This document shows, in pieces, positions 420 to 46,552 of a stretch of 64,000 nt of DNA. Numbering within the stretch: position 1 is the first letter of the stretch; the number at the start of each line of letters is the position of its first letter. Under the pieces are notes generated by a model that was not told the origin of the DNA, did not search any database, and worked only from the letters and a program-made list of their open reading frames with translations. Position numbers and translations under genes: made by a program. This stretch comes from Formosa sediminum (GTDB lineage: Bacteria > Bacteroidota > Bacteroidia > Flavobacteriales > Flavobacteriaceae). The DNA lies in NCBI RefSeq assembly GCF_007197735.1, contig NZ_CP041637.1, positions 3,691,001 through 3,755,000 of the forward strand. The letters run 5' to 3'.

Positions 420-488
420 ATAAATTTGGCTTGTATTTGTATAATGAAATTATGATTTATAAAAATAGATAACACCTCAGCAATTGAA

Positions 489-520
489 TATAAACTATGG
501 TGCAATCCTTATAAATTATA
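489..520 (-). promoter_or_regulatory. Paired 11-bp direct repeat, candidate HTCS operator (site 1)
   Basis: Read on the minus strand: half-sites TATAATTTATA and CATAGTTTATA with a 10-bp spacer, so the repeats start 21 bp apart (two helical turns). The site ends 70 bp before the start of the left-edge β-helix gene. It shares half-site sequence, spacing and orientation with five other sites in the window. Two tandem half-sites suit AraC-type DNA-binding domains; binding by the regulator at 16627-20802 is inference. Confidence 0.65.
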
Positions 521-608
521 TGCCTAAACAGAACAGGAGACGAAAAAGATTTATAAAACCTTTAATTCATCTCCTGTAGTATAGTAAAAAAGAGACTAAT
601 CTCAATTC

Positions 609-3248
609 TTACAATTTCACTGGTGTTTCATCTCCATTAAAGCTAATGGTTTGAACTTGCCCACCAATCATTTCAACTTTAAAGGCCATAGGATTTTCAG
701 AAAAATCTATAAAAGATCCTTTCCCTTTTGTTATTAGAAGCGTTTTATCGGCTTCTGAATAGTTTAAGTTAACCTCAGAGTAAGCGCCGTTTTCATAATC
801 ATAAGTTTCACTATCATCAAAATACAAAGTAAATTCCGCATCGGCTCCAGGGTACACCTTAAGAATGATAGGTTCATTCGTTTTCTGTGTAGCATACTGC
901 ACTTTTGGTCCGAATGGTATAATAGAGCCTGCTTTAACAAAAAGAGGTGTTTCATCTAAATCGGCTTTTACAGTAATCTCCTGTCCGCCTTCAAGTTTTT
1001 CATTCGTCCAGTAGTTGTACCATGTTCCTTTTGGAAAATACATAGTTTTTTCGCGTTGCTCGTATTGGGTAACTATACCAACCATAAAAGATTCTCCAAA
1101 TAAAAACTGATCACTAATTCCCCAGACCTTTTTATCATTTGGATATTGATATGCTAACGGACTCATGAGTTGTTTACTGTTGGTTGTAATTTGCCAAGCT
1201 TGTGAATAAATATATGGCATAAGTTGGTAGCGTAAATCAATAAATTTGCGCGCAGTACTTTCAAATGCTTCATTATAACGCCAAATCTCGGTTTCCGAAA
1301 CATAACCGTGAATTCTAAATATTGGACTGAAGGTTCCAAACTGAAACCAACGGGTTAATAATTCAATAAATTCTGGATTGGTATATTGGTTATCGAATTC
1401 TGGATTAATGGATCTTGAATCTCTAAAAAATCCGCCAATATCATGCGTCCAATATGGAATTCCTGCCATGGTAAAATTAAGACCAGCAGCAATTTGCTCT
1501 TCCAATTGTTCCCAAGACGCTTCTACATCTCCAGACCACGAGGTTGCACCATAACGTTGTTGTCCGGCATAAGCTGAACGCGTTAAATTAAACACACGCT
1601 CTTTTGGAAATTCCTTACGACGGCCATCGTACATGGCTTTAGTTACAAGAAGTGAATACGGGTTTTGAACTTCTTCAAAACGACCAACAGCAGTTAACTG
1701 AGTAGCATCATTAACACCTTCCGGCTCTGTACCATCTAACCAAATAGAACTGACTCCTTTGTGAAACATAGAGTCGCTTAACATACGATAAAACCGTTCG
1801 CTTACCCCATTGTCGTAAATATCAATGTAGTTACTACTCTTAATTTTTTTAAGGTTGTATTTTTCCTCTAGCGCTTCATTTTTAACCTCTGGCCAAACAG
1901 ATACCATTAGTTTTAAATGTAATGATTTTAGGTCTGATAACATTCCATCTGGATCTGGATATTTTGCAGGATCCCATTCCGGACCTTTTGTGCCTTTTGG
2001 CCAATAAAACCAGTCTTGTACAATATTATCAAAAGGAATCTTACGAGCTCGCATTTCATGTGCATTAACCAATAATTCTTCTTGGTTATGATACCGTTCT
2101 CTACATTGCCAAAATCCATAAGCGCTTTTAGCAAATAAAGGAGCTTTTCCCGTTAATTTCTGATACTGAGAAATTACAGCCTCAAGAGTTTCACCCTGTA
2201 CCACATAATAATCTATTGCATTCCCATGTGTACTACTAAACACTGTTTTGTTATAATCTGGCTCATTGTAATACAAATTACCAGGAATTTTAGCACCTGT
2301 ATTTTGAAATACCACGTTATAAGTTTTACCTGCCTCTAAAAACTTTTTACCAGAATATCTGCGAGGCATCCAAATGGTTGAATAGTTAATTACAGGATCA
2401 CCATCTATACTTACATTAATTTTCCCACGCATGCGACCGTCATGATCACTTAAAGCTAAAAATGTATATTCCCCAGTTTTAGTAGGCGTAAATGTAGTTT
2501 CACGGATATTTTTTTCTGCTGCTTCAGATGTATTGATATGTGCAGCAACATCTTCTTTTTCACCATCTACAGTAATAACAGTCTGCTCTGTTGGCGTTGC
2601 ATTAGACTTAGTGTTTTTAAATTTAATTGCATGCTGAGGCAAGTTAAAATCTGTCAGACTATAATTATGCCAATAAATGCCGTAACCTTTGGTAGATACC
2701 ACAAACGGAATAGCTATTTCTTGATTATATTGCTGAAGTCGGATGGGTACATGTTTCCAATTCATAATACCACTTTGGTATTGCCCTAAACCATACAGCG
2801 CTTCGTCTCCTGCAACAAAACCTTGAGACACTTTATGCTGTTCTCCCTCTGGTTGAATATATGTTAGTTCTTCGGTTTCTGATAGTAACTGATGATTCGC
2901 TTTCGTTATATAGCTTATAATGCCATCGCTAGAAATAGTAACCTGTAAAGAATCTGTGCTCAATGTTAACAAGTCTTCGGTTTCTTTTAGCTCCCATGAC
3001 ACTTCCTGAGGTTTTAAAACTGTAACATAATCGGGAAGCTCTGAAGGTTTGTCTCCCAGCAGTGTCTTTTTAACGTGAATTATAGAAGGGCTTATTACTT
3101 CTATATGAATACGTGTACTGTCTTTGTGAATGCTTATGCCATGTGCATTTTTTTCAAATTGATTTTTGAATTTAGATTGGCAGCCAATCAGAAAAACAGG
3201 AATTACTATAATTAAAATTTTAGTAATTAGTTTTTTAATATAAATCAT
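609..3248 (-). CDS. GH31 family α-xylosidase-like lipoprotein with PA14 insert
   Basis: Glycoside hydrolase family 31 retaining enzyme. Catalytic nucleophile D505 lies in WLDGTEPE, the form typical of α-xylosidases, and the acid/base is probably D574 in SGDVEASW. A PA14-like domain (about residues 240-330) sits in the N-terminal half, as in Bacteroides GH31 α-xylosidases. The longest frame starts at a TTG (3293), only 27 bp from the operator at 3320-3351; the ATG at 3248 begins a clean lipoprotein signal (lipobox FLIGC) and leaves 72 bp, so I chose it (879 residues). Likely a surface or periplasmic exo-enzyme removing α-linked xylose (or glucose) from the algal glycan. Substrate is inference. 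First gene after its own operator. Confidence 0.85.
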   Translation of the reverse strand: MIYIKKLITKILIIVIPVFLIGCQSKFKNQFEKNAHGISIHKDSTRIHIEVISPSIIHVKKTLLGDKPSELPDYVTVLKPQEVSWELKETEDLLTLSTDSLQVTISSDGIISYITKANHQLLSETEELTYIQPEGEQHKVSQGFVAGDEALYGLGQYQSGIMNWKHVPIRLQQYNQEIAIPFVVSTKGYGIYWHNYSLTDFNLPQHAIKFKNTKSNATPTEQTVITVDGEKEDVAAHINTSEAAEKNIRETTFTPTKTGEYTFLALSDHDGRMRGKINVSIDGDPVINYSTIWMPRRYSGKKFLEAGKTYNVVFQNTGAKIPGNLYYNEPDYNKTVFSSTHGNAIDYYVVQGETLEAVISQYQKLTGKAPLFAKSAYGFWQCRERYHNQEELLVNAHEMRARKIPFDNIVQDWFYWPKGTKGPEWDPAKYPDPDGMLSDLKSLHLKLMVSVWPEVKNEALEEKYNLKKIKSSNYIDIYDNGVSERFYRMLSDSMFHKGVSSIWLDGTEPEGVNDATQLTAVGRFEEVQNPYSLLVTKAMYDGRRKEFPKERVFNLTRSAYAGQQRYGATSWSGDVEASWEQLEEQIAAGLNFTMAGIPYWTHDIGGFFRDSRSINPEFDNQYTNPEFIELLTRWFQFGTFSPIFRIHGYVSETEIWRYNEAFESTARKFIDLRYQLMPYIYSQAWQITTNSKQLMSPLAYQYPNDKKVWGISDQFLFGESFMVGIVTQYEQREKTMYFPKGTWYNYWTNEKLEGGQEITVKADLDETPLFVKAGSIIPFGPKVQYATQKTNEPIILKVYPGADAEFTLYFDDSETYDYENGAYSEVNLNYSEADKTLLITKGKGSFIDFSENPMAFKVEMIGGQVQTISFNGDETPVKL

Positions 3249-3319
3249 TGTTTTATTTGTACTTAAATTAATTATAAAAAGCCTTACAGACAATACTATA
3301 AAATTCTATTTAAGGATCA

Positions 3320-3351
3320 TATAAATCATGATTCATAAGTTATAAGCTATG
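3320..3351 (-). promoter_or_regulatory. Paired 11-bp direct repeat, candidate HTCS operator (site 2)
   Basis: Minus strand: CATAGCTTATA, 10-bp spacer, CATGATTTATA; same 21-bp period and orientation as the other sites. Lies 72 bp upstream of the chosen GH31 start, which also argues against the TTG start at 3293. Confidence 0.6.
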
Positions 3352-3366
3352 ATGTATTACTAGCCC

Positions 3367-3378
3367 TAGCGCGCGCTA
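3367..3378. repeat. GC-only palindrome between GH31 and β-helix genes
   Basis: TAGCGCGCGCTA is a perfect 12-bp palindrome just upstream of operator site 2, with a central run of eight alternating G/C bases. It stands out against very AT-rich flanks. It could be a protein-binding site or part of a terminator for the gene ending at 3468, but there is no U-tract. Function unknown. Confidence 0.35.
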
Positions 3379-3467
3379 TAACATAAAATGGTGTTTAGGA
3401 TAAGTGAAGCATCATAGAAAAGCTAGTTTTCAAATTCTATAATTCCACACAAAAACAACCCAATTTT

Positions 3468-4844
3468 TTACCACAAAATCCTAACATCTTTTGGCCATTG
3501 CTTGATATCTGTATACACTTGATTGCCTGTTTTAAAACTGCTATGTTCAAATTTTACATCGCATTTCAATAAGCCCATATCGATATTTGTATTATCAAAA
3601 TAACTATTAATCACATACGATGGGCCACGAACAATGCGCCACATAGCGCCCCAAGTGTTATTTACAATTTCGCATTTATTTAAAATAACATGTTGTGGCA
3701 CCCACTTCAGATCTTCGGTATATTCAAATTTATTATAATAAGATTCGCAAGGAAACCACAGTGCTACACGCTTAAAATTGGACATATACAGCTTATGAAA
3801 AAACAGATAACCAGCCATATTATTATCTGCTTGTATGCCATTACCTTTCCCTTCTTTCATCACACAACGTTGGCTTAAAACATATTTAGCCGATGTATAT
3901 TTATTAGATTTTCCTTCAGAAGGAAAAGACATATCGCAATCGGATTGCAACACATGTCCCACAAATAAAAAGTAAATATTATGATGGAGCCCACCACGTG
4001 TCCCATTATGTTGAAATATGCTATTGTCCATTATAATATGGTTTACTCTGCTAATACCCACACCATGAGAACCCATATTTTTAACAGTTACATTTTGCCA
4101 CATTAATCTCTCGTGCCTGTCATTATCATCGCCTCGTAAATTTAAGCCACTACCTGTATCACTTCCTCCTAAAAATGTTAAGTCTTTAAACACTACATCT
4201 GTTAATTTCTTTTTAGGCACTTGATTGATAAAATTGCCAGTGCCAATATGTTTTATGGTCGTTAACTCGCGACCATCACCACACAGTGTAACCCGACTTT
4301 TAATAATTAAATCTCCTGTTTCAAAAATGCCTGACTTTAATAGCACGACGCCTCCACCGGCATCATGCATCTTATCGATAGCATCCTGAATATCATCACC
4401 AGGGTTTAAAGTTATTACCCGATTTAAATATTGCTTAGGATACTGTACATGCTTAAAATCATCTCCCCATTTATCATGCATCACATTTAAAACCTCCTCC
4501 TCTATTTTAACCTTAGTTATAATATAATTGGATTGTGGATTTTGCAATGGCTTCAGTTTAATTTCTAATAAAGTATCTAGCGCATCTTCTACAACAACTT
4601 TTTTGCTTTCTGAATAATAACCTGATTTTTCAATTTTAAAGTGTATTGTTTTTGAAGGGGCATCTGTAATTGACCAAATAAATTGACCATTAGATTTTGT
4701 TTTAACAGCTTCCTCATTAAAACTAATCTCCACACCATCTAAAGGCGTGTTATTTGTGTCTGTAACTAGTCCACGCATGGCGTTTTGCGCCATAATTATG
4801 GGTGTCATTATTAAAAAACAAAAGGAAAATAAAATATACTTCAT
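3468..4844 (-). CDS. Secreted β-helix protein with N-terminal carboxypeptidase-regulatory-like domain
   Basis: 458 residues. A signal peptide (cleavage near IIMAQ) is followed by a carboxypeptidase-regulatory-like β-sandwich (about 23-95: RGLVTDTNNTPLDGVEI) and then a right-handed parallel β-helix of the pectate-lyase superfamily (about 110-458), opening with GDDIQDAIDKMHDAGGGVV. The helix is clearly paralogous to the C-terminal two thirds of the 7003-9063 protein: blocks LQSDCDMS, GNGIQAD and RVALWFPCE are shared. The fold occurs in polysaccharide lyases and in glycosidases such as GH28 and GH141; I cannot assign a numbered family. Conserved D, H and E in the shared blocks are active-site candidates. 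Only 34 bp separate it from the sulfatase upstream, so they probably share a transcript. Enzymatic role is inference. Confidence 0.75.
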   Translation of the reverse strand: MKYILFSFCFLIMTPIIMAQNAMRGLVTDTNNTPLDGVEISFNEEAVKTKSNGQFIWSITDAPSKTIHFKIEKSGYYSESKKVVVEDALDTLLEIKLKPLQNPQSNYIITKVKIEEEVLNVMHDKWGDDFKHVQYPKQYLNRVITLNPGDDIQDAIDKMHDAGGGVVLLKSGIFETGDLIIKSRVTLCGDGRELTTIKHIGTGNFINQVPKKKLTDVVFKDLTFLGGSDTGSGLNLRGDDNDRHERLMWQNVTVKNMGSHGVGISRVNHIIMDNSIFQHNGTRGGLHHNIYFLFVGHVLQSDCDMSFPSEGKSNKYTSAKYVLSQRCVMKEGKGNGIQADNNMAGYLFFHKLYMSNFKRVALWFPCESYYNKFEYTEDLKWVPQHVILNKCEIVNNTWGAMWRIVRGPSYVINSYFDNTNIDMGLLKCDVKFEHSSFKTGNQVYTDIKQWPKDVRILW

Positions 4845-4878
4845 TAGTGTTTTAAACCATTAATTTTTAAAGAAAATC

Positions 4879-6696
4879 TTAATTCTGAACAGGTGTTACA
4901 TAATTATAGTACACAGCACCTTCCATTTCACCTGTTTGATTATAAAACCACGTTTGGATAAATGCTGGTCCTTTTGGTAGATTTTGTAAACTGAATTTTA
5001 CGCCATCCGCATTAGGGTCTGCGGCTTTTTTTTCATCGACATACACTGTATCACCATTCCAAATTTTTATTCTGGCACTCGCTATATCTAAAGCCTTTCC
5101 AAAATCGCCTCCAGAAGTTAAGTCCGTTTGCGTTTCAATTTCTTTTGGCCAACGGCGTAAATCGAAATTATAGGTACCTGTTTTATCAAATTCTACTGCT
5201 ATAAAACCGCTACCCGAATCTCCTTTTTTCACATTACTTTGATCCCAAATAACGGTACCATGAAAATCGTGTGCATGCAACGTTGTTTTAGGCTCTGCTT
5301 TATTGCCTATAATAATTCTGGTGTATTCGTCGGAACGCGCTTCTACCAATTTCCACCAGGCTTCGTATTCTGCTTTTAATTCGGCTACCAAATCATCATA
5401 TTCTGAATTTGAAATGATGTTATTTTTTTGTTTTTCATCAACTAATACATCGTACAATTCCCAATCAGAGGTACTACTATTTCGTATTAAGCGCCATTTA
5501 TGAACGATGACATCTCCATCCCAATCATCTTTTTTCACCGATAGTTTTTTATATTTCTCGGGAAATTCTGTCCACATATCGTTTATTATTACCGCTCTAT
5601 TTTTATATCCAGACGGATCATTTTTAGGATTATCATCTAACATTGGAACAAAACTACGCCCACGAATTTTCAACTTTTCTGGTCTATTTTCTACATCTTT
5701 AAGATCTAACAAGTCCATAAACGTAGGTAACCAATCAATATGTGCCGTTAACGGCTCTACATCTTTACCTTTACCAGTACCGCCCAAATGTCCGTTAGGC
5801 CATCTTATAAAACATGGCACACGAGTACCACCATCGTAATTAGATCCTTTGCCTCCGCGTAAATACCCGCCATCACCGTTATCTGTAGTAAATACAAGTA
5901 TGGTATTATCTGCGATACCTTTATCATCTAAAAACTTTAGTAAACTCCCCATATTTTTATCGATATTTTCTATAGTTCCTTTTTTTGCACTTACACCTTC
6001 ACGCGCATCTGGAGGTAATACATGCGGTGCATGAGCTGTACCTAAAGGGATATAAGCAAAAAATGGTTTATTTTTTTCAATATTATCGCTCATAAAATCC
6101 ATAGCCCGATTCATAAAGAAGTTGGTCGTAAAAGCACCTGGAATACCATCGTCTTCATCGGTCATTTCTACCAGAGAGTCATTCACCCACATATGTGCTT
6201 GGTTATTAGTATTTCCCCAATAATCGGGTTGCTGACCAGTGCCACCACCTTTAATCCAAGCTACATATTCAAATCCACGATCTTTAGGTCTAAACGGATA
6301 ATTGTCTCCCAAATGCCATTTAAAGAAGAGACCTGTAGCATAGCCATTTGCTTTAAAAATATCGGCCATTGTAATTTCATCTGAACGCATCATATTTCTA
6401 CCATTAATGGTATGCCAAACTCCTACCACATCGCTTGGTCTTCCTGTAAGTAAAGCCCCTCGTGTAGGCGAACAACTTGGAGAAACATGAAAATCGTTTA
6501 GCCTAACAGATTCATCTCCTAATGCATCGATATTGGGTGTGTGTGGTGCATTATTTTTGAAATAAGAAAATGAACTATGACTAATATCGTCAGGCATTAC
6601 GAAAATTACATTTGGACGATTTTGCATTTGGGCAAAACTGTAGTTAGAATGTGCAAAAAGTATAATTAATAGTAAACCTATTTTTGAAAATTTCAT
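4879..6696 (-). CDS. S1 family sulfatase (formylglycine type) with extra C-terminal domain
   Basis: 605 residues. The signal peptide ends near YSFAQ. The N-terminal alkaline-phosphatase-fold domain has metal ligands D36/D37 (MPDD) and the active-site motif CSPTR with C75, the cysteine matured to formylglycine. Further catalytic-domain blocks are KWHLGD, TAHAPH and TTDNGDGG. After about residue 470 comes a domain ending in FIQTWFYNQTG, longer than in a simple arylsulfatase, possibly a β-sandwich that shapes the substrate pocket. It would remove sulfate esters from the polysaccharide or its oligosaccharides. It needs an anaerobic sulfatase-maturating enzyme or formylglycine-generating enzyme, neither seen here. 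Operator site 3 lies 158 bp upstream; the β-helix gene follows in the same operon. Regiospecificity unknown. Confidence 0.9.
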   Translation of the reverse strand: MKFSKIGLLLIILFAHSNYSFAQMQNRPNVIFVMPDDISHSSFSYFKNNAPHTPNIDALGDESVRLNDFHVSPSCSPTRGALLTGRPSDVVGVWHTINGRNMMRSDEITMADIFKANGYATGLFFKWHLGDNYPFRPKDRGFEYVAWIKGGGTGQQPDYWGNTNNQAHMWVNDSLVEMTDEDDGIPGAFTTNFFMNRAMDFMSDNIEKNKPFFAYIPLGTAHAPHVLPPDAREGVSAKKGTIENIDKNMGSLLKFLDDKGIADNTILVFTTDNGDGGYLRGGKGSNYDGGTRVPCFIRWPNGHLGGTGKGKDVEPLTAHIDWLPTFMDLLDLKDVENRPEKLKIRGRSFVPMLDDNPKNDPSGYKNRAVIINDMWTEFPEKYKKLSVKKDDWDGDVIVHKWRLIRNSSTSDWELYDVLVDEKQKNNIISNSEYDDLVAELKAEYEAWWKLVEARSDEYTRIIIGNKAEPKTTLHAHDFHGTVIWDQSNVKKGDSGSGFIAVEFDKTGTYNFDLRRWPKEIETQTDLTSGGDFGKALDIASARIKIWNGDTVYVDEKKAADPNADGVKFSLQNLPKGPAFIQTWFYNQTGEMEGAVYYNYVTPVQN

Positions 6697-7002
6697 ATTT
6701 GATTTTTAAGTTTTGAAGTGAGTTATTGAATACTCCAAGATAATTTGAACATCTTTCCAGCTGGTTCTATAGCCAAACCTCTATGATCTGAAAGTCTCTA
6801 CTATTTTAATAGATTACATGCATACAATAATACCTAAAACCATAATATTATCTTATAAATTATGATTCATTGCATATAACTTATGAATACTTTAGAATAG
6901 TTTAACACGTATTTAAACCAAACAGAATCTATTTTACAAACGTTGATTTAAATTCAATATTTAGAAACAAGAAAAGTGCTAATTAAGCTAAGCTCTTAGT
7001 AA
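6697..7002. other. 306-bp intergenic region
   Basis: Promoter region of sulfatase 1. It is AT-rich and carries the paired operator at 6854-6885. No open frame, RNA gene or terminator with a U-tract was found. The transcript from the 7003-9063 gene must end or read through here. Confidence 0.6.
6854..6885 (-). promoter_or_regulatory. Paired 11-bp direct repeat, candidate HTCS operator (site 3)
   Basis: Minus strand: CATAAGTTATA, 10-bp spacer, CATAATTTATA. The period is 21 bp and it lies 158 bp upstream of the sulfatase start at 6696. The second half-site equals the consensus. Confidence 0.65.
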
Positions 7003-9063
7003 TTACCATAGTAATTTCACATCTCCTGGCCATTGATTCACTGATGAATAGGTTTGGTTTCCAGTAATAAAATCACTATTTTCTATAGTGACATCACAGT
7101 GTAACAAACCCATGTCTGTTTTTTTATTATTAAATGTACAATTTATAACATAAGATTCTTTAACACTACGCCACATGGCTCCCCAAGTATTATCGACCAC
7201 TTTACAACGGTTAAGAATAATATTTTGTGGGGCATATTTAGCGTTTTCTGTATAATTATATTTATCGTAGTAATTTTCGCAAGGAAACCACAAAGCGACA
7301 CGGCCACAACCAGATATGTCGAATTTATGAAGGAAAATATAACCGGCTTCTTCATGGTCGGCCTGAATCCCATTACCATTTGCATCTCGAATCTTACAGC
7401 GTTGAGCCAACACAAACTCGCAAGACGTGTATTTGTTACCTTTACCTTTTATAGGATTAGACATATCGCAATCGGACTGTAAAATATACTTATTATACAA
7501 AAAATACACATTGTGGTACAATCCTCCTCCAGAACCATTATATTGAAAATCGCAATGATCCATAATAATATTATCGGTACGTTTTAAATGCACACCTTGT
7601 GCCGACCAATCTCTGACTGTAATATTTTGAAACATAATTCGGTTATGACGACTCTCGTTTTTTCCGGACATACGTATACCATTAGCCTTGCCTTTACGAG
7701 TGCCTTGAAGGATTAAATCTTTTATTACAAAATCAGTCACTTGATGTTCTGGTTCTACATTTATTCCAGACACCAACATGTCTGGCCCTTGCATAATAAT
7801 AGTCTCTGCTTGTCGTTCGCCCACAAGTGTTACATTACTCCTTGGTAGCAAGGTGTCTTTTAAATAATGAATCCCCTTTTTTACTACAACAACCCCTCCA
7901 CCTGCTGCACTAGCCATATCAATAGCTGATTGTATTGATTCTCCAGGACTGACCTCTATAACATAATCTAAAAATTGCTCGGGATAACTAACATGTTTAA
8001 ATGCATTGTTCCATTTATCTTGCATAATGGTATACACTTCAGACTCTATTTTAACTTTATTAATCTTATAATTCACATGTTTTTGAAAGGATTTAGTGTC
8101 ATATAAAAAGTAGTGTGTTGTCCACGTTTTTTCACCATTTACAGGAACTGAAATTGCTATACTATTACCTACAGAAATTAAATTACCATTTGCAAAAACC
8201 TGTTCTTTACTTAAATTCTGATCTATAGACATGGTTAGTCCTACTCCAGAATTAGGGTTTTCGATTGTTAGTTTAGTATTTGGTGTTATCGTTTCAAATC
8301 CTTTTAAATCTAAGTTCACATTTAAATCTCCAAGAGCCTTTGTAAACTGAATGGCATTACCACTAATATTTACATAATCTTCCAATATATTTTCAGTTTT
8401 AATTTTATAAGGATAAATAATTTGAAAAGGAAGTTTTACCTTATTGTCTTCTGTTATAAATGTATTCTCTGTATTAAAGTCTAAATGCATGGGTTTTGAG
8501 CCTGTGTTTTGAAGAGAATGTTCTACAACAAAACCCTGCTTAGACAATTTAACTGTTTTTTTATAGATATAAGCATAGCCAAAATCACTTGAAATAGTAT
8601 GAGTAAAATCTATCCAATCTGCCCCATAATTAGTTTTCCATGTGCCATGATCTAGAATTTTGCACTCGGTTTGTCCCGAATTATTTACAACATGCTTAGA
8701 CTTTTGGAGAATTCCGACACCTAAACGTATAAATTTTTCGCTAGAAGTTGATTCAGAATATCCTAAAGAAGCTGTAAATTTTGGTCCCGAAAAATTTTCA
8801 ATCGTCTTGGATTTCTGATTTAATGAAGAGGCTTTAAAAATAGATTGCCCTTTATATTTTAAACTGGCTATAAGTCCCGACCAATCCCAATACGATCCCT
8901 GATAGTATCCTTTTTTATGATCGGGTAAAAATAAAGACATAGTCACATTATCATTAGAAATTTCGGTATGTGGATATTTTAAATACGTCTCCTTTTGTGC
9001 ATATCCTTGATTAACGAAACACCCTGCCAAACACAGCATGTATATCAAAATTTTTATATTCAT
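7003..9063 (-). CDS. Secreted two-domain protein: galactose-mutarotase-like β-sandwich plus parallel β-helix
   Basis: 686 residues. The signal peptide ends near QGYAQ. Residues ~25-330 look like a supersandwich (aldose-1-epimerase-like) domain: YWDWSGLIASLKYKG, WIDFTHTISSDFGY, FVVEHSLQNTGS. Residues ~345-686 are a pectate-lyase-type β-helix that starts with GESIQSAIDMASAAGGGVVVV and parallels the 3468-4844 protein closely (LQSDCDMS, GNGIQAD, ALWFPCE). The two paralogues therefore share the helix but carry different N-terminal domains. Supersandwich modules are common in polysaccharide lyases and glycosidases. I cannot name the family. It lies 46 bp downstream of the GH95 gene ending at 9110, so probably the same operon. 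A lyase or glycosidase for the PUL glycan is inference. Confidence 0.75.
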   Translation of the reverse strand: MNIKILIYMLCLAGCFVNQGYAQKETYLKYPHTEISNDNVTMSLFLPDHKKGYYQGSYWDWSGLIASLKYKGQSIFKASSLNQKSKTIENFSGPKFTASLGYSESTSSEKFIRLGVGILQKSKHVVNNSGQTECKILDHGTWKTNYGADWIDFTHTISSDFGYAYIYKKTVKLSKQGFVVEHSLQNTGSKPMHLDFNTENTFITEDNKVKLPFQIIYPYKIKTENILEDYVNISGNAIQFTKALGDLNVNLDLKGFETITPNTKLTIENPNSGVGLTMSIDQNLSKEQVFANGNLISVGNSIAISVPVNGEKTWTTHYFLYDTKSFQKHVNYKINKVKIESEVYTIMQDKWNNAFKHVSYPEQFLDYVIEVSPGESIQSAIDMASAAGGGVVVVKKGIHYLKDTLLPRSNVTLVGERQAETIIMQGPDMLVSGINVEPEHQVTDFVIKDLILQGTRKGKANGIRMSGKNESRHNRIMFQNITVRDWSAQGVHLKRTDNIIMDHCDFQYNGSGGGLYHNVYFLYNKYILQSDCDMSNPIKGKGNKYTSCEFVLAQRCKIRDANGNGIQADHEEAGYIFLHKFDISGCGRVALWFPCENYYDKYNYTENAKYAPQNIILNRCKVVDNTWGAMWRSVKESYVINCTFNNKKTDMGLLHCDVTIENSDFITGNQTYSSVNQWPGDVKLLW

Positions 9064-9109
9064 AATCCGTTTTTATTAATTACATATAATTAAACACATG
9101 ATTTTTCTA

Positions 9110-11533
9110 TTAAAGTTTAAGATAATATTGTGTTCCTTTTACAGTGTTAAATGCAAGTAAATCGGCTTGCTCTGATTTTAAAACTATGGGACTTCCAGTA
9201 GAATTTGTTAATGTTGACTTAGCAATATGCGCGTATTTAAGTTTGCAGATTCCACCGCTTCTAGATAGAATTTCTATAGCTTTAGCCTTGCCTTCTTTCC
9301 AAACCACCGAAAACTCGAAATTACCCCTAGCCACCAAACCAGAATAAGCACCAGTATTCCAAGCTTTAGGCAGTGCAGGAAGTATTTGAATATAATCTTC
9401 ATGACTTTGAATTAACATTTCTGCTACCCCAGCCATAGTTCCAAAATTACCATCAATTTGAAATGGCGGATGTGTAGTCCATAAATTTGGTAAAGTACGC
9501 TCTTTTATAAATTTTGAATATACATTATGAGCCTTCTCGCCTTCCTTTGTACGTGCACGTGCATTCATACGATGCGCCATTGCCCAACCCGTGGTGATAT
9601 TACCTCTTAAATCTAAAGTATGCCGAGCGGCTTGTATCCATTCTGGAGTGGTCTCGTTGATTAAAGTTCCAGGATAAAGGGCACATAAATGTGAAATATG
9701 CCTGTGGTGCTTTTGTCCGATTTCTCCATAATATTCTTCTTCTCTAAATTCTTTGATCTGACCTGATTTCCCAATTATTATTGGATCTAATTTTGTTAAT
9801 TGATCTTCAACGGTCTGCTTGAATTTATCCTTAATATCGAGAACTTGGTAAGCTTTTAATAAGTCGTTATGATTTTCCCAAACCAGTTCTTGATCAAAGG
9901 TCGTACCGGCAGTAATATAATTATCTCCATTATGTTTTTGCTCTGGTGATGCCGATGGATTTACAAGTAACAAACTATCATTTACCGAGACTAAAGTTTT
10001 AGATAAAAACTGACTCATACCCAAAATAGCAGGAAAGCCTGTTTCCTTCAAAAAAGTGGTATCTCTCGTAAAGTCGTAATAATCCCAAAACATTTTAGTT
10101 GTTAATGCACCTGTTCCCGGACCAGAATGTCCACCAGGTCCCACAATTTTATAAGGTGTAGTACCCGTTCCTATTGTCCAACCATTTTCTAAGCTATTTT
10201 TAGCTAATACTTCTGGGTGGTGTACTTTTAAATATACTGTCGCTAATTGTTTTGCTTTAGGATAATAAGCTTTAAAGAACTCAATATACGGTGTAAATGT
10301 TTCAGCTAAATTAGTATTAAACGCCCCCCAATAATTCATTTGCACATTAATATTATGCCAAAATCCACCAGTAAAAGGTGTTACTTCATATTGGCTCCAG
10401 ACGCCTTGTAAACCACAAGGCAATGTCCCCGGGCGTGAAGTTGAAATTAATAAATAGCGACCATAGTGAAACATGAGTTCTTCTAAATAAGAATTTGAGA
10501 CTTCTTCCTGATAATCTGTTAACACCTTTTTTGTTGGTTTATTTGGAATATCTGTACTAAACTGAAGCTTTACACGAGAAAATAATGATTGATAATCGTC
10601 TATATGTGTTTGCTTTAATTTTTCATAGCCTTTTTTTGATGCCTTTTGTATAATACGGCTAACCTTCTCATGTGTATTAACATTAGTATCTAATTTTTTA
10701 CTATGATTATCTTCTAAAAACACAGCTTGAGTTAATCTGTAATTTGTTCCCGCACTTACTAATAAAATCACGCTATCTGCATGAGTTACTTTTATTTCAG
10801 ATTGCTCCCCATTTTGACTAGTGGATAAGGTTCCTCCTGTAGGTATTACTTTTATTTGTCCTTCATAATTCACACTAAAATGCTCTATACATCCAGCCAT
10901 GGTTATGATATTTTCGTTTACGGTCATGTATCCCGTTCGCGTGTTTTTCTCTGTTGGTTTTCGTAGATATGGAATCTCTGGCTTTAGTACGAAGGAAATC
11001 TGTCCGTTTTTACTAGCACTCAATTTAATTACCAACACATTATCAGGATAACTCAAAAAATGTGTTCTGGTATAGCTTACGCCATCTTGTTTATAATTAA
11101 CATAGGCTATGGCTTCATTTAGATTTATTGAACGTTTGTAGTGAGTTGGATTATTATGATTAAATTCCAAATCAATTTCAGCAAAACTTGTTAAACCACC
11201 TATTCCGTATAAACCTTCGTTTGCCAATGTTTTTTCGGTAAGTTGTATACGCTCAACGTCAGTTCTGCCAAAAATATTTGCTCCCATATAACCATTACCT
11301 ATGGGGTAAGAATGTAACTCCCAATCTTCATCGTACGGATAGCCTCTAGCTTTAGTAATATTGAAATCTCCACCGCGATTGGGAGCAGGTTCACTATCCC
11401 AAATACTATAAATACGTTCTGTTAATTTTAAATTAGAATTTGAAGTTAACTGGCTAAAACTAAAGTTACAGCTACATGTAAAACAGATGTATAATATGAG
11501 GCTTTGGTAATTACTTAAACTATCTATTTTCAT
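9110..11533 (-). CDS. GH95 family glycosidase, divergent copy (α-L-fucosidase or α-L-galactosidase)
   Basis: 807 residues, secreted (signal ends near FSFSQ). It has the GH95 layout of an N-terminal β-sandwich and an (α/α)6 barrel. Catalytic-site blocks are recognisable: NINVQMNYW (the two asparagines), SASPE with E531, HHRHISHL, and QIDGNFG with D694. GH95 enzymes are inverting α-1,2-L-fucosidases, with some α-L-galactosidases. The N-terminal part differs from its neighbour at 11791: an extra segment precedes the family's opening block, which here reads YPIGNGYMGANIFG, and the asparagine block is followed by GAFNTNL where the neighbour has PAEVTNL. A different linkage or sugar preference is plausible. 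It is followed by the β-helix gene after 46 bp. No paired operator is visible in the 257 bp upstream. Confidence 0.85.
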   Translation of the reverse strand: MKIDSLSNYQSLILYICFTCSCNFSFSQLTSNSNLKLTERIYSIWDSEPAPNRGGDFNITKARGYPYDEDWELHSYPIGNGYMGANIFGRTDVERIQLTEKTLANEGLYGIGGLTSFAEIDLEFNHNNPTHYKRSINLNEAIAYVNYKQDGVSYTRTHFLSYPDNVLVIKLSASKNGQISFVLKPEIPYLRKPTEKNTRTGYMTVNENIITMAGCIEHFSVNYEGQIKVIPTGGTLSTSQNGEQSEIKVTHADSVILLVSAGTNYRLTQAVFLEDNHSKKLDTNVNTHEKVSRIIQKASKKGYEKLKQTHIDDYQSLFSRVKLQFSTDIPNKPTKKVLTDYQEEVSNSYLEELMFHYGRYLLISTSRPGTLPCGLQGVWSQYEVTPFTGGFWHNINVQMNYWGAFNTNLAETFTPYIEFFKAYYPKAKQLATVYLKVHHPEVLAKNSLENGWTIGTGTTPYKIVGPGGHSGPGTGALTTKMFWDYYDFTRDTTFLKETGFPAILGMSQFLSKTLVSVNDSLLLVNPSASPEQKHNGDNYITAGTTFDQELVWENHNDLLKAYQVLDIKDKFKQTVEDQLTKLDPIIIGKSGQIKEFREEEYYGEIGQKHHRHISHLCALYPGTLINETTPEWIQAARHTLDLRGNITTGWAMAHRMNARARTKEGEKAHNVYSKFIKERTLPNLWTTHPPFQIDGNFGTMAGVAEMLIQSHEDYIQILPALPKAWNTGAYSGLVARGNFEFSVVWKEGKAKAIEILSRSGGICKLKYAHIAKSTLTNSTGSPIVLKSEQADLLAFNTVKGTQYYLKL

Positions 11534-11790
11534 AAAATTATTAATTTTATTCAGTAAAAAATCTGTTTAGTTTTAACGGTCTCTATAGCTAATTTTAAAG
11601 TCTATTGTATTAAAAATTAATAACCTAATCTGGTGTAACTAAATCACATTAATATTCTTATTTATTTATACCTCAAAACGATAATCAAAACAGTTACTAT
11701 ACCGTACAAAAAAATGTTGTCTCTCCACTAAAAATAAATCCAAATGCTGGGAACTGTTATATTCCCTGTTAAATTAAAGGCTCGCATATA

Positions 11791-14376
11791 TTATTTTTTT
11801 ACAAGGATTATTTCCTCTCCAACTTTTGTATCAATATCATACTCAAAAGAAGGTTTTAAAGAAATGCCTTTAAGAGTCGCTTTTTTAGAAATAATAGGCT
11901 CTTTAATTTCTGGAACTTGATAAAACGTATTGGGATTATCACCTGAAGCCACATGTAAAACATCTCCATTTGGAGACTTTAATTCACTATACGAGCGTAT
12001 GCGAAGATTACCTCCTAATGTTGATTTAATTATTGCCTTTATAACTTCTCCATCCTTCCATTCTAAATCTAAAATCTCGAAACCTCCGCGGGCTCTTAAA
12101 CCTGTAACTTGTCCATCTTTCCATACATCTGGTAAAGCAGGAATTAAATGAATTGCTGCATCGTGACTTTGTACTAACATTTCTGTTAGCCCAGAAGTAA
12201 ATCCAAAATTACCATCGATTTGAAATGGTGGATGCGCATCAAGCATATTAGCATACGTACCACCACCTTTAGGAGAATCTGCACGGCCGACCAATTTTAT
12301 TTGATCGCCCATTAATCTATAGGCATGATTACCATCTAACAAACGTGCCCATAGATTAATTTTCCAATTCATAGACCAGCCAGTAGAGGGATCGCCTCGC
12401 TGAATTAAAGTATTTTTTGCTCCTTCAAACAATTCTGGAGATCTATATGGTGAAATTAAGTTGGAAGGATATAAACCGTATAAATGAGACACATGACGGT
12501 GATCGTCTTCAGGATCGTCTAAATCGTCCATCCATTCTTGTAATTGATTGTGTTGGCCTACTTTAAAAGGAGGAAGTTTTTCAAGAGTCTGCTTCATTTT
12601 TTGCACCAAATCTGCATCTTCATTTAATAATTCTGCTGCTGCAATGGTTTTAGTTAGCATATCAAAAACCAATTGGCTATCCATAGATGTACTTTCAACA
12701 ATATTTACACCTTCAGGGCGTCCTTTAGGAGCATGTTCTGGTGAAATCGTTGGAGATATTACTAAATAGCCATTAGGATCTTCTGTTAAGAAACTTAAAC
12801 AAAATTCTGAAGCACCTTTCATAGCTGGATACACAGATTTTAAATAATCTATATCTCCATTAAATATATATTTTTCCCACACATGCTGAGTCAGCCACGT
12901 TCCACCAGTTGTCCACATACCCCAGGTTGCGCCGTCTACAGGACCTGTTATACGCCATAAATCGGTATTATGATGCGTAACCCAACCGTTTGCATCATAC
13001 ATTTCTTTAGCTGTTTTTTGCCCTACAACAGAAAGTTCTTTTACTAACTCAATTAAAGGTTCATGCATTTCTGTGAGATTAGTAACCTCTGCTGGCCAGT
13101 AGTTCATTTCCGTATTAATATTTACCGTATACGCACTTTTCCAAGGTGGTGTTAAATCTTTATTCCAGATTCCTTGGAGGTTTGCAGCCTGTCCTCCGGG
13201 CTGTGATGATGAAATTAAAAGATACCGTCCAAACTGAAAATATAACGCTGCCAAACTAGGGTCTGTTACCGAGCTGAAGTTCTTTATTCTAACATCTGTG
13301 GGTTTTTCATCATGCTCAGACGAACCTAAATCTAGAGACACTCTATTAAAGAATTTCTTATAATAGTTAGAATGACTTGTTTTTAATTGGTCGTAATCTT
13401 TCGTTTCTGCAGCAGTAATATAGTCCGTTGCTTTTTTATGGGCATCTGCACTAAGATCTTGATAATTCACAAAATTTGTAGCAATCGATATATAAATGGT
13501 TACACTATTTGCTTTAGAAACTTCTAACGTATTGTTTTTAGCAGCTACACGTCCTCCCTCATTTACAATTTTAACCCGAGATTGAAACTCGACTTCGCCT
13601 TTTATGGCTTTGGCATTCTTCAATCTTTTATTTAAATTATCACTTCCTAATCCGACCATTTTTAATACATTATCACCTTCTGTTGTCACGGTAACTTTAG
13701 CCGGTTCAGGACGATCCATATCGGCTGTAAAACTTAATTTCCCATCTTTATTTGCCGTTAATCGCAGTACAATTACTTGATCTGTAAACGATGTAAACAT
13801 CTCACGTTTATATTCTACACCATCAACTGTATATGTAGTAGTATTAATTGCATTTTCAATATCTAACGCTCTGTGATAATTTGAATATGCTTCGTGGTTT
13901 AAAAAATCTAATCTTAAATTACCCACCGTTTCATAGGGCATTCCATGGGATGTTTGTGAAATAAATTTGGCATTAGCCAGATTATGAGCTTCTTGAAACT
14001 TACCATTAAACAACAATTTTCTAATTTCAGAAAGCGCATCTTTTGCATCTGGATTAGCATTGGTATGTGGACCACCCGCCCAAAGGGTAGCTTCGTTTAA
14101 TTGAATGTTTTCTTCTGAAGGATGACCATAAACCATAGCCCCTAGTCGTCCATTACCCAGAGGTAAAGCTTCGTTCCAATCGGCTGCAGGAGCATCATAC
14201 CACAAAAGCAGTTTTGAGGTTTTAAGTTGCATGGAAGACTCTTTTTTATCGGACTCATTACAACTCAATATACTTAAAGACAAACACACTATTAATAATT
14301 TAAAAAACTTAGATTTCAGTTCTTCTATAGCACGTTTTTTTGATATCCGTAATACCATTTGTTGAAACAAATACAT
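11791..14376 (-). CDS. GH95 family α-L-fucosidase, canonical copy, lipoprotein
   Basis: 861 residues. It starts with a long basic leader and a lipobox (LSILSC, about residue 39), suggesting outer-membrane anchoring. All GH95 hallmarks are present: [49 protein letters not shown] with general acid E547, [12 protein letters not shown] and [12 protein letters not shown] with D721. The expected reaction is inverting hydrolysis of terminal α-1,2-linked L-fucose. It lies downstream of sulfatase 2, but an intrinsic terminator at 14494-14523 separates them, so it may use its own promoter within 118 bp. The fucose released would feed the catabolic genes at 28035-37872. An alternative start at 14358 gives a shorter leader. 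Confidence 0.9.
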
Positions 14377-14493
14377 AAGCGATTATTTTATTGATTGTAT
14401 TCTCTATTATTAATTAAAATCTTATTTTAAATCGTGTTAAAGCCTTCATCCTATACATCCTAAATCACTAATACTTGTGAGTGTTTAGGAATT

Positions 14494-14523
14494 AAAAACC
14501 TTGAACATACATCCAAGGTTTTT
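14494..14523 (-). terminator. Intrinsic terminator after sulfatase 2
   Basis: Perfect 10-bp stem AAAAACCTTG/CAAGGTTTTT with a 10-nt loop, 41 bp after the sulfatase stop. The T-run gives a U-tract on the minus strand, and the A-run makes it usable on the plus strand too. Confidence 0.8.
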
Positions 14524-14563
14524 CCGCTTTAAACTCAACTAAAAAACATGAAACATGTATATT

Positions 14564-15943
14564 TTACTTGGCAACCGTTGGTGCTCCAGAACGCACATCT
14601 TGTTCCCATTCTGTTAATATCTTATCCATTTTTTGTACGCGCATAGGGTAAGAACTTGAAAGGTCTTGGGTTTCTGAAAGATCTACTTTTAAATTAAATA
14701 AATCCAGAGTAACCACCGTGTCTTCAATAGTTTTTACCAATTTCCAATCGCCTTGCCTTACTGCTTTTTTATTTCTAAACACCCAAAACAAATTACGTTC
14801 AGGAGCTGAATCTCCTTGTACTAGATGCTGTTTAAAGCTAACTCCATCTACATGTTTTCCTGTTGGAGTTGCATTTGCAAAATCTAATAATGTTGGTAAA
14901 ATATCCATCGTTAAGATGGGAGTAGTATTTAGTGTACCCGCTTTAAAATGTCCTGGGTATCGCATAATGGCTGGAACGCGATGCCCGCCTTCGTAAACAC
15001 TAGCTTTATAATCTCTTAACACTCCATTATCTCCCCTTGATGAAGCAGCTCCGTTATCTGAACAAAAAATAACAATCGTATTTTTTTCTAAACCTTCATT
15101 TTTTAAGGTGTTTAATAATTTGCCTATAGTTCCATCAAGTGTTTCTATCATCCCTTCGTATATGGTTTGTATAGAATCTTTAGGGACTTTTCTAATATAT
15201 TTTTTACTTCCCTTTTCTCTCACAGGTTTATCATGGCGTCCTTGAATTGGATAATGAGGAGCTTCTTGAGCGAGATATAAAAAGAAAGGTTTTCCAGTGG
15301 TATTGGAGTTGTGTTTTTTTATAAATTGAATACCATAGTCATTAATAAGATCTGTTGAATATCCCTTTTCATTTTCAATATTATTGTTTTTCCACCAATC
15401 TAAATAACCTTCTTGATCTACATGAGCATGATAATCTATATTTCCGCTAACAAATCCAGAAAAAGTATTAAACCCTTGATAAATAGGATTAAAAGATTCT
15501 GCATAACCTAAATGCCATTTACCAAACATTGCTGTAGTATATCCTAAACGTTGCAGCTCATCTGCTAAAGTTACTTCATCTAAATTTAATCCTACATCTC
15601 TGTGATTAGCCGCGGTAATAACACCTTCTATACCTGTACGTTGTTGGTATTTACCCGTCATTAATGCTGCTCTTGTAGGACTACATAAAGGGCCATTAGC
15701 ATGAAAATCTAAAAATTTAATACCCTGAGAAGCTAGTTTGTCTAAATTTGGTGTCTGGATTTTTTTACTCCCATATGACGATAATTCTCCATAGCCTAAA
15801 TCATCTGCCATAATTAAAACAATATTAGGTTTAATATTTTCTGTCTCTACAGACTGCTGAGCGAATGTTGGCAAAAAAGAAAACAATAAAAAACCTTTAA
15901 TCAAATTACTAAATGACATTAGAAAGGATGTATTCATTTTCAT
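14564..15943 (-). CDS. S1 family sulfatase (GALNS/arylsulfatase-like)
   Basis: 459 residues, a compact single-domain sulfatase. The signal peptide ends near PTFAQQ. Metal-binding D47/D48 lie in MADDLGYGE, and the formylglycine motif CSPTR has C87 (GPLCSPTRAALMTG). Further core blocks are FGKWHLGY, APHYPIQGRHD and FCSDNGA. A terminal WKLVK/LFNLKVDLSE block is typical of arylsulfatases of this branch. It desulfates glycan fragments in the periplasm or at the surface. It is monocistronic: operator site 5 is 130 bp upstream and a terminator follows at 14494-14523. Which sulfate position it removes cannot be read from the sequence; it shares little with the 4879-6696 sulfatase outside the active site, suggesting a different specificity. 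Confidence 0.92.
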   Translation of the reverse strand: MKMNTSFLMSFSNLIKGFLLFSFLPTFAQQSVETENIKPNIVLIMADDLGYGELSSYGSKKIQTPNLDKLASQGIKFLDFHANGPLCSPTRAALMTGKYQQRTGIEGVITAANHRDVGLNLDEVTLADELQRLGYTTAMFGKWHLGYAESFNPIYQGFNTFSGFVSGNIDYHAHVDQEGYLDWWKNNNIENEKGYSTDLINDYGIQFIKKHNSNTTGKPFFLYLAQEAPHYPIQGRHDKPVREKGSKKYIRKVPKDSIQTIYEGMIETLDGTIGKLLNTLKNEGLEKNTIVIFCSDNGAASSRGDNGVLRDYKASVYEGGHRVPAIMRYPGHFKAGTLNTTPILTMDILPTLLDFANATPTGKHVDGVSFKQHLVQGDSAPERNLFWVFRNKKAVRQGDWKLVKTIEDTVVTLDLFNLKVDLSETQDLSSSYPMRVQKMDKILTEWEQDVRSGAPTVAK

Positions 15944-16072
15944 ATGGTAACTATTAATTTATATGCTATGTTATTTATAATAACCCTAACCATCTATTAC
16001 TCCATCAATGTTTAGGGTTATTACTACTCAATTCAACACCACTGCAAGATTGATTTTAATTTAAAAACTTGC

Positions 16073-16104
16073 TATAAATTATAGTCCAATTGCTATAAAT
16101 TATG
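16073..16104 (-). promoter_or_regulatory. Paired 11-bp direct repeat, candidate HTCS operator (site 5)
   Basis: Minus strand: CATAATTTATA, 10-bp spacer, TATAATTTATA. This is the best-matching pair, 130 bp upstream of sulfatase 2. Confidence 0.7.
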
Positions 16105-16230
16105 ATTGATAATAATAAAAACTGTATCTATTTAATTGACTAAATGTGAAGCAACTATAGTATTAGTATTTATAATTTTAAAAACATGTGATGCCTGATA
16201 ATATTATAAAATAACATCTCAGCTTTAAAT

Positions 16231-16261
16231 AAAAAAGTTCAGAATACATTCTGAACTTTTT
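16231..16261 (-). terminator. Intrinsic terminator, bidirectional
   Basis: Perfect stem AAAAAGTTCAGAAT/ATTCTGAACTTTTT (14 bp, effectively 12 bp with a 6-nt loop) with flanking A/T runs. On the minus strand it lies 366 bp after the HTCS stop and about 180 bp after operator site 6. It could therefore end the HTCS transcript or a short transcript started at site 6. Confidence 0.75.
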
Positions 16262-16442
16262 ACCAAAAGCAACAACAAATACCAAACTGAATGCGCTTTT
16301 ATATTTTAATAATGTAGATTTAATCATGAAAAAATTGAATACTTAGTAAATAGAAATAAATCATTTTTGGAGTGATTTATTCCAACCTCCATTGAGTTCT
16401 TTACTAGGTACTTTAAATTTAGGGATTTTTGTACTTAATCAC

Positions 16443-16474
16443 TATAAATTATGGATTAACACCTATAAATTATC
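16443..16474 (-). promoter_or_regulatory. Paired 11-bp direct repeat, candidate HTCS operator (site 6, orphan)
   Basis: Minus strand: GATAATTTATA, 10-bp spacer, CATAATTTATA. It has the same architecture as the others, but no gene starts within 500 bp downstream and a terminator stands between it and sulfatase 2. Confidence 0.6.
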
Positions 16475-16626
16475 ACCTAATATTAGATTTAACGTATAAT
16501 TATCTAATAAAAATGTAAGTCTTTTCTATAATTAGTAGTTTTCTAAATAATTTAACTTACTACATTAATAAAACATGCTTTTGAAGCGTAACTAGATATT
16601 GCTATTTATTAAACTATATAAGAGTA

Positions 16627-33467: not shown

Positions 33468-34367
33468 ATGAAGTTTGTAAAAGACATCGCTTTAGGAGAT
33501 CCTTCTACTAACAACCAAAATTTTATTGACCTGAGATTAAGGCTCATGTGTTGCAGATATTGGTTGCTAGATTTATGGGATTGTCATGACATGGTATTTC
33601 CGTTTTGGAGACTGTATTGGAATAAAAATTCTGGCGGACAGTTAATACACCAAAATACGGTTTATGACATGGATGCAGATCACATCTATATTATTCCTCC
33701 ATTTACATCCTTTTCATCTCAATTCAAAAAGAATCACAGATATACTACTGGAATTCACGTCTCAGGAAAACAATTTACTAGCAACATAAATGAAAGCGAT
33801 TATAGTAATGAATCCTTAATACATTTTTTTGTCCATTTTAATTTAGGTGTCCCTTTTGATAGTGTATATCCTGGAATTTTAAAAATAGAAATGACCATAT
33901 ATTTAAAAGAGCGTTTAGAATATTTAACCGAACGTTTAAAAATTGAGAATAAAAATTTTAAACTCACTTTCAATTTAAAACTTCAAGCATTTATAAAAGA
34001 AGCCCTTACCAACATAGGACCAGAATTGTGGAAAACGACCATTATAGATGAGCGCGTACTTAAAGTTATTAGGTATGTAGAAGCGAATATTGAAAAGAAA
34101 TTAAAAAACACAGACATGTCTGATTTAATCAACATGGCCCCAAATTCTTTTGCTCGCTTATTTAAAAGTGAAATGCATGTTACACTACATAACTTTATTC
34201 AGAATAGAAAAATTGCCAAATCGTGCGAGCTTTTTGAACATACCAATAAATCAATTGAAGAAGTTGCTTATGTTTTGGGTTTTTCAGACCGTTATCACTT
34301 TTCTAGAGTTTTTAAATCGGTTACTGGACTTACACCTGCCGTTTACAAATCTGGACGTTATACTTAA
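33468..34367 (+). CDS. AraC family regulator of fucose catabolism
   Basis: 299 residues. The N-terminal ligand domain (about 1-190) contains a PPFTSFSSQFKKNHRY block resembling sugar-binding AraC sensors of Bacteroidota. The C-terminal double helix-turn-helix (about 200-297) reads MAPNSFARLFKSEM and IEEVAYVLGFSDRYHFSRVFK. It is divergent from fucA-fucI and upstream of aldA on the same strand, so control of the fucose genes is likely; the ligand (fucose, fuculose or lactaldehyde) is inference. No signal peptide, so a cytoplasmic sensor, unlike the HTCS that senses in the periplasm. Confidence 0.85.
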   Translation: MKFVKDIALGDPSTNNQNFIDLRLRLMCCRYWLLDLWDCHDMVFPFWRLYWNKNSGGQLIHQNTVYDMDADHIYIIPPFTSFSSQFKKNHRYTTGIHVSGKQFTSNINESDYSNESLIHFFVHFNLGVPFDSVYPGILKIEMTIYLKERLEYLTERLKIENKNFKLTFNLKLQAFIKEALTNIGPELWKTTIIDERVLKVIRYVEANIEKKLKNTDMSDLINMAPNSFARLFKSEMHVTLHNFIQNRKIAKSCELFEHTNKSIEEVAYVLGFSDRYHFSRVFKSVTGLTPAVYKSGRYT

Positions 34368-46135: not shown

Positions 46136-46552
46136 TGTCCTCTAAATTTTGTTAGCAATCTACTTATAAAGTATCAAGAAAGTATCCCGATTATATTTCA
46201 ATTTATAAAAGAATTGCGTGTTTCGTTTAAAAATAGACGTCTAAACCTTTATTTTCTTTCAAAATTCTTATTTTTTTTAACTTAAGAAAAGGCACCTCTT
46301 CTATTCTGTTTTGTTGTCATTAAAACAATGCTTCTTATCAAACATAACATCCTCGTAATAAACCTCCTACACTGTAATTAATCTCTTAAGCATATACTGT
46401 TAAATCTTCTCCTTTTTAGACATATGAACCATAATTTATAGAGATTGAATTATGCGTTACAGCCATTATAGGTCTTTATAAATAATTTTAATAATCTTCA
46501 TTTTCATGTCAATAAACCAGTGAAATAGAATATTAACCAAAATTCAATATTT
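46136..46552. other. 417-bp divergent promoter region
   Basis: Between the response regulator (-) and the CBM6/β-helix protein (+). Operator site 7 lies at 46430-46461, oriented towards the plus-strand gene. No open frame noticed. Confidence 0.55.
46430..46461 (+). promoter_or_regulatory. Paired 11-bp direct repeat, candidate HTCS operator (site 7)
   Basis: Plus strand: CATAATTTATA exactly, a 10-bp spacer, then a weak second half TATGCGTTACA (6 of 11 match). Same period, 91 bp upstream of the 1576-residue protein, and the only plus-strand copy, matching its gene's direction. Confidence 0.5.

Follow-up and report, generated by a model that had tools for sequence, protein, structure and literature searches.

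A single regulator of the hybrid two-component system (HTCS) type very probably acts through paired direct repeats at three loci of the Formosa sediminum genome. The window analysed here is a stretch of 64,000 nucleotides of this genome (NCBI RefSeq assembly GCF_007197735.1, contig NZ_CP041637.1, positions 3,691,001 to 3,755,000 of the forward strand), and a first-pass annotation, made from its letters alone, had proposed that a repeat pair ahead of the genes of a polysaccharide utilization locus (PUL) was the probable operator of the HTCS encoded at 16627-20802. This proposal is supported by the conservation of the sites at orthologous loci, by the way in which the motif tracks the HTCS ortholog across genomes and by a locus-restricted genome scan, and from these patterns we infer binding itself. 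Judged from sequence, the pairs are thus putative operators of this HTCS, and its regulon would comprise the window sites, a SusCD/sulfatase block at 2.265-2.321 Mb and a GH29 locus at 2.715 Mb. The features of the window are as follows.

16627..20802, minus strand: HTCS regulator, the proposed binder, with Reg_prop/Y_Y_Y sensor, HisKA, HATPase, receiver and AraC-type helix-turn-helix (HTH; residues 1304-1380) by Pfam
489..527, minus strand: operator including left arm, heading a likely five-gene operon that runs past the window edge
460..467, minus strand: -7 box TATTTTTA, weak, at operator position 54 of the 489 site
3320..3358, minus strand: operator preceding the GH31 gene (ATG at 3248)
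3291..3298, minus strand: -7 box TAGTATTG of the 3320 site
6854..6892, minus strand: operator preceding sulfatase gene 4879-6696 and then the downstream gene 3468-4844
6825..6832, minus strand: -7 box TATTATTG of the 6854 site
16073..16111, minus strand: operator preceding a likely operon of sulfatase 14564-15943, GH95, GH95 and beta-helix 7003-9063
16045..16052, minus strand: -7 box CAATCTTG of the 16073 site, degenerate and one base closer to the operator
16443..16481, minus strand: operator just downstream of the HTCS gene
16414..16421, minus strand: -7 box TAAATTTA of the 16443 site, weak
46423..46461, plus strand: operator preceding the gene for a 1576-aa CBM6/CBM35 protein of the type IX secretion system (T9SS)
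46483..46490, plus strand: -7 box TAATTTTA of the 46430 site, weak

The six 32-bp sites lie where they had been reported, at 489-520, 3320-3351, 6854-6885, 16073-16104 and 16443-16474 on the minus strand and at 46430-46461 on the plus strand. Their start-to-start spacing of 21 bp is also as described: the degenerate pair BATARNTTATA / YATRNNTTAYA occurs six times at this spacing and at no other between 8 and 79, and none of 60 dinucleotide shuffles of the window contained it at 21. Because the pair pattern was taken from the sites themselves, these counts measure rarity and are not a blind test. A sequence-only profile of 71 columns (R1), trained on 28 sites that are all foreign, picks out the six window sites and no others at E<=6.5e-6, on the same strands, and its next-best place in the window has E=0.037. 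The training set (A1) omits four of 32 foreign sites, namely G207:39961 (cut by the end of the stretch), G236:34920 and G011:1401 (-7 box one base nearer) and L076:5684 (no box at position 54). Operator and start codon are 70 bp apart for the 489 site, 72 for 3320, 158 for 6854, 130 for 16073 and 92 for 46430, and over the three loci 12 of the 13 own-genome sites face a same-strand gene start 62 to 251 bp away, the exception being 16443 (500 bp).

The half-site and its spacer turned out differently from the first description. Instead of about 11 bp, the half-site covers about 18 bp, WWWGAAY-N-ATAATTTATA, across 45 aligned sites (one cut row of the 46 was dropped, and the rejected match at 2109530, discussed below, was kept). 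The 10 bp once taken for an unrelated spacer are part of the second half-site: position 18, inside its TTGAAY arm, is G in 0.90 of the aligned sites and in five of the six in the window. The sites were hand-picked from matches (most above 16, three near 14-15) to a matrix built from the window's own six sites, so that conservation of its 22 columns is partly selection; the arms, the spacer and the -7 box were not used in finding the sites, yet they are conserved.

The distance to the promoter is equally constrained. Of the 45 aligned sites, 31 have a TAnnnTTG -7 box starting at position 54, two at 53 and two elsewhere, and the looser TAnnnTT stands at position 54 in 38 of the 45, including five of the six window sites and 11 of 14 rows from this genome; degenerate boxes one base nearer the operator occur at 16073 and 2268058. 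A matrix scan of the sister-species regions and of the second HTCS locus of genome G298 gave 40 sites, 30 of which share TAnnnTT at position 54. The box thus starts 22 positions past the last base of the operator. A separate -33 TTG is not conserved in the 45 sites, where positions 33-37 hold at most 0.11 bit. The flavobacterial -7 box spans -12 to -5 in the excerpted text of PMC9723704, and with this numbering the half-sites fall at about -72 to -55 and -51 to -34. The geometry is that of a class II activator, with the TAnnTTTG-like -7 box at fixed operator distance and without the -33 TTG, as in activated sigma-A promoters of this class in Flavobacteriaceae.

The random placing of such pairs in the genome had been named beforehand as grounds for giving up the operator claim. 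The genome scan did not show it. In the 3.93-Mb genome (one contig), all 11 profile hits at E<=1e-3 lie within three carbohydrate loci, six in the window, four in the 2.265-2.321 Mb block and one at 2.715 Mb, where the site precedes the gene for a T9SS protein and then a GH29 fucosidase; weaker hits are scattered, and the best of those that fall elsewhere has E=0.018. A two-mismatch pattern scan of both strands gave 41 matches against 10 for the reversed control pattern, and the 11 with at most one mismatch were the six window sites, four at 2.265-2.310 Mb and one at 2.1095 Mb. The last of these (2109530, matrix 19.7) was rejected, as it lacks the left arm and a terminator-like hairpin directly follows it. 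Also rejected were sites near 2494188, which are short CATAACTC-like tandem repeats; such repeats, which mimic the operator matrix, extend over 2493703-2494298 (L041) just upstream of an open reading frame (ORF) of 1248 aa.

The block is 55 kb long and lies 1.4 Mb from the window. Pfam scanning of 29 of its 35 ORFs found SusC and SusD (the pair at 2273019/2276300), GH29, a GH141 insertion-domain protein, GH97, GH3, GH30, GH39, GH88, a weak GH43 match and four sulfatases. It contains no HTCS-like match. Five of its six operators have TAnnnTT at position 54.

The motif follows the regulator through the family. Among the HTCS relatives listed as matches, one group stands at 50% identity or more and the rest at 42% or less. 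At the orthologous loci, matches to the window matrix exceed 16 in 18 of 19, and two control regions have none; the nineteenth locus, of genome G001, has no matrix match above 16 (best 13.2), yet gives a profile match at E=3.7e-13. At the other 18 loci, permuting the matrix columns gave a score as high as the best real one in 0 to 5 of 100 trials. We took the ortholog and motif scans of 298 family genomes as one sample; overlaps between the two genome collections are possible, and L078 and contig C22 of G299 are probably one record. With R1 at E<=1e-4, 15 genomes were positive, comprising 13 of 13 with the HTCS ortholog and two of 285 without it (Fisher's exact test, 6e-21, ignoring the kinship of the genomes). 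The ortholog genomes G000, G001 and G236 had supplied no training sites. Among 42 genomes listed separately at E<=0.1, 40 had weak matches, which fell below 1e-3 only in the 12 genomes with the ortholog. Furthermore, when 296 genomes of the order were scanned at E<=1e-5, the hits came from G000, G001 and one new genome, G547, which was flagged by the motif first; the HTCS search then found a 53% ortholog 744 bp from the site. This search covered G547 and its 10 congeners, and the latter, which lack the motif, have paralogs of at most 41%. As a separate observation, two genomes without the ortholog carry a direct repeat TTGCGTCATAATTTATA with the same core and a different arm (L271:9955-10003 in G209; L272:10005-10062 in G176). 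In G209 it adjoins a different regulator with an AraC-HTH and tetratricopeptide repeats (L271:7796-9877), which may read the same core.

The protein itself has all the HTCS domains in one chain (Pfam). Its most hydrophobic 19-mer, 813-831, a candidate for the membrane span between sensor and kinase, has a mean hydropathy of only 1.4, and the nearest solved structure by sequence is 12aw, a hybrid two-component system protein. This genome has just two full-length HTCS matches, that of the window and one at 3.357 Mb (29% identical), around which 40 kb hold no site above 14 (matrix); the HTH of the second protein is 37% identical to that of the window HTCS, and those of the orthologs are 57-91% identical. 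The S/CHIP motif of the receiver a3-b4 loop, as defined in excerpts of PMC11253607, is present as CHIP, and candidate residues of the inhibitory HTH interface, picked by eye only, are a D (IDEAF) and a K (YRK). With this loop of the inhibitory interface in place, release of the HTH upon phosphorylation is likely.

We envisage that the sensor would meet an oligosaccharide of a fucose-containing sulfated glycan, that phosphorylation would then free the HTH domains, and that these would bind the operators and recruit sigma-A polymerase. In each operator two direct half-sites of about 18 bp lie 21 bp apart, a distance that would suit two AraC-type HTH domains of one HTCS dimer on the same helix face, and the proximal half-site would substitute for the -33 element, as in class II activation. 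E. coli AraC is arranged alike at araI1-I2, where two tandem half-sites are 21 bp apart and the proximal one lies next to or over the -35 element; here, unlike there, the HTH belongs to a hybrid kinase that is presumably membrane-bound, and the promoter type is that of Bacteroidota.

The principle of a tandem 21-bp HTCS operator is already published. Ravcheev et al. (2013; PMC3878776), in the excerpted text, describe the operators of HTCS in Bacteroides thetaiotaomicron as direct repeats of two conserved sites with an average spacing of 21 bp, and the HTCS_Man, HTCS_Rgu and HTCS_Hep regulons resemble ours in having repeats ahead of PUL operons and proposed HTCS dimers two helix turns apart. 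The window sites are of this type, being direct repeats about 21 bp apart, upstream of PUL genes and conserved at orthologous loci; the likeness is one of architecture only, and here the regulator is from Flavobacteriaceae and a -7 box at fixed spacing, a feature absent from that excerpted text, recurs across genomes. Binding of HTCS fragments to PUL promoters in electrophoretic mobility shift assays (EMSA) is reported in extracts of PMC11253607 and PMC5061871. The HTCS response regulators BT4124 and BT4663 (mBio 2024, PMC11253607, in extract) share the receiver with AraC-type HTH and the S/CHIP loop; EMSA binding is theirs, and the window HTCS is likened to them by the receiver-HTH layout and the loop, not by kinship. 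Among the titles and abstract openings listed by searches of open-access papers, none pointed to an HTCS operator at fucoidan loci or in Flavobacteriia.

In the other species of the genus the regulon is more compact. Four of five have the HTCS ortholog (74-91%) and the motif, and the fifth (G014) has neither, the motif at E<=1e-3. Hits at this threshold lie in a single region with the HTCS in G298 (10 of 10), G300 (12 of 14) and G301 (6 of 6), the operators in sister species spanning about 80-130 kb; G299 is a fragmented draft, with 11 hits over four contigs. Protein comparison places the genes of the window cluster and of the distant block together, largely on one strand, in G301, G298 and G300, with a different gene order in G300. 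Of the 35 block ORFs 32 have a match in the G301 region, as do 12 of the 13 from the cluster, some at paralog level only. As this closest relative has cluster and block together, the split is most simply a change that arose in the F. sediminum genome, although an assembly error could also produce it. G298 also has a second HTCS copy, 54% identical (C1:2137343-2141491; L278), with one matrix site near 2126582.

Several observations weigh against assigning the sites to this HTCS. Binding, activation, control by phosphorylation, the ligand and control of the block in trans are all inferred. Because the genomes are related, the joint occurrences of motif and ortholog are not independent of one another, and training sites had come from 10 of the 12 foreign genomes with the ortholog. 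At the G001 locus eight of 100 permuted matrices scored as high as the best real match, and the ortholog-free G176 and G209 have one match each with a different left arm, in which the core CATAATTTATA is paired with TGCG. Two of the 14 hits in G300 at E<=1e-3 are outside its PUL, and its site 1215277 faces no nearby gene. In F. sediminum, the first two genes of the block are preceded by weak sites (E 0.16 and 0.013). The key G of the distal left arm is found in two of six window sites, compared with six of seven at the block and the GH29 locus, and no more than two of six window sites and five of 14 own rows carry the strict TAnnnTTG at position 54.

AraC proteins bind tandem half-sites too, and another regulator of this type could bind the sites with the same geometry, chiefly an AraC-like protein of 299 aa whose gene (33468-34367) lies beside fucI. 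The window thus encodes it next to the fucose catabolism genes, and L075 has a 299-aa ORF, perhaps its counterpart, in similar gene order beside the HTCS. However, tested against the genome distribution this candidate proved weak: relatives at E<=1e-40 occur in nine of the 298 genomes, five of the 15 motif-positive ones and four that are motif-free, whereas the HTCS ortholog is found in 13 of the 15 positive genomes and in no motif-free one. The fuc genes adjoining the AraC-like protein also lack the site, and we regard its role as binder as quite improbable.

It is likewise unlikely that the HTCS uses nearby sites only, the copies in the 2.27-2.31 Mb block being relics or read by an unseen local regulator. 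The lack of an HTCS-like match in the block and its two weak sites would fit such a limit, but the block has kept its operators and the spacing of their -7 boxes, and in G301, G298 and G300 the same genes bear such operators in one region with the HTCS. For B. thetaiotaomicron, moreover, the excerpted text of PMC3878776 proposes that HTCS control distant genes. That the pairs are a repeat family, the end of a mobile element or a chance AT-rich pattern with no regulatory role is hardly credible; the operator core is AT-rich, and the matrix matches 2109530 and 2494188 do look like chance, but strand, -7 box distance, 21-bp spacing, conservation across genera and the locus-restricted distribution contradict it.

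The chances are about even that one HTCS runs a dispersed regulon, in which an ancestral PUL was broken by a rearrangement into two blocks that now lie 1.4 Mb from each other while the operator-promoter cassette kept both, together with the GH29 locus, under one periplasmic sensor, and that this rigid cassette is perhaps a general design of Flavobacteriaceae HTCS promoters. This would suggest that a regulon can persist after its gene cluster has been physically divided, and if the cassette is general, other HTCS regulons of the family could be read from sequence. The gene set under this switch is now listable, and the pattern first noticed becomes a testable regulon of one sensor, 13 sites and three loci, joining scattered genes for the breakdown of a glycan that is probably sulfated and fucose-containing and predicting their transcription start positions. 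With the foreign-site profile the regulon can also be located in other Flavobacteriaceae.

Autoregulation of the HTCS in this genome was rejected, since the profile scan gave no significant operator upstream of 20802. In L078, L080, G298 and G300 an operator does lie upstream, either of the HTCS gene directly or of genes that lead up to it. At G298 1167225 (L288) and G300 1321982 (L293) it heads a row of TRAP-type transporter genes (by Pfam in G298) running into the HTCS gene, which may be autoregulated there.

Right to left on the minus strand, Pfam assigns the cluster in the window as HTCS, sulfatase, two GH95, a weak beta-helix match, sulfatase, a 458-aa protein and GH31. Past the left window edge follow five closely spaced genes for products of 484, 468, 450, 454 (GH43) and 545 (GH39) aa, with one weak beta-helix match. 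The first of these had been called a beta-helix gene; its operator is present, but the full 484-aa product has no Pfam match at 1e-3, and it is the next gene of the operon that matches Beta_helix weakly. Similarly, the supposed beta-helix/CBM6 gene at 46553-51283 has CBM6, CBM35 and a T9SS tail by Pfam and no beta-helix at 1e-3. The 20 of 42 listed window ORFs that were scanned include no SusC or SusD match. The fucose genes of the window (isomerase, class II aldolase, FGGY kinase, Fe-ADH, aldehyde dehydrogenase and major facilitator superfamily (MFS) transporter) are without operator in the foreign-site profile scan, and the reported absence of sites upstream of fucI (30766-32553), aldA (34906-36345) and fucP (36574-37872) holds, there being no match of operator strength. 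GH95, GH29, the sulfatases, fucI and the MFS transporter suggest that fucoidan (fucan) may be utilised, and the genes behind the operators probably act on sulfated algal sugars.

Finally, all five left-hand sites had been placed ahead of PUL genes. Four do head likely operons, but the fifth, 16443-16474, is 500 bp from the next gene start; this operator may add to the sulfatase operon, or it may be an orphan. In G301 the site at the corresponding place heads a GH3 gene that is absent from this place here. We rejected the idea that a 49-aa ORF at 16178-16327 is the start of a lost SusC, as the G301 sequence has a different arrangement, with the GH3 gene after its operator. A hairpin with a T-run (16231-16261, minus strand) lies between the 16443 operator and the sulfatase operon and could be the terminator of the HTCS gene or an attenuator; a similar hairpin stands between operator and GH3 gene in G301.

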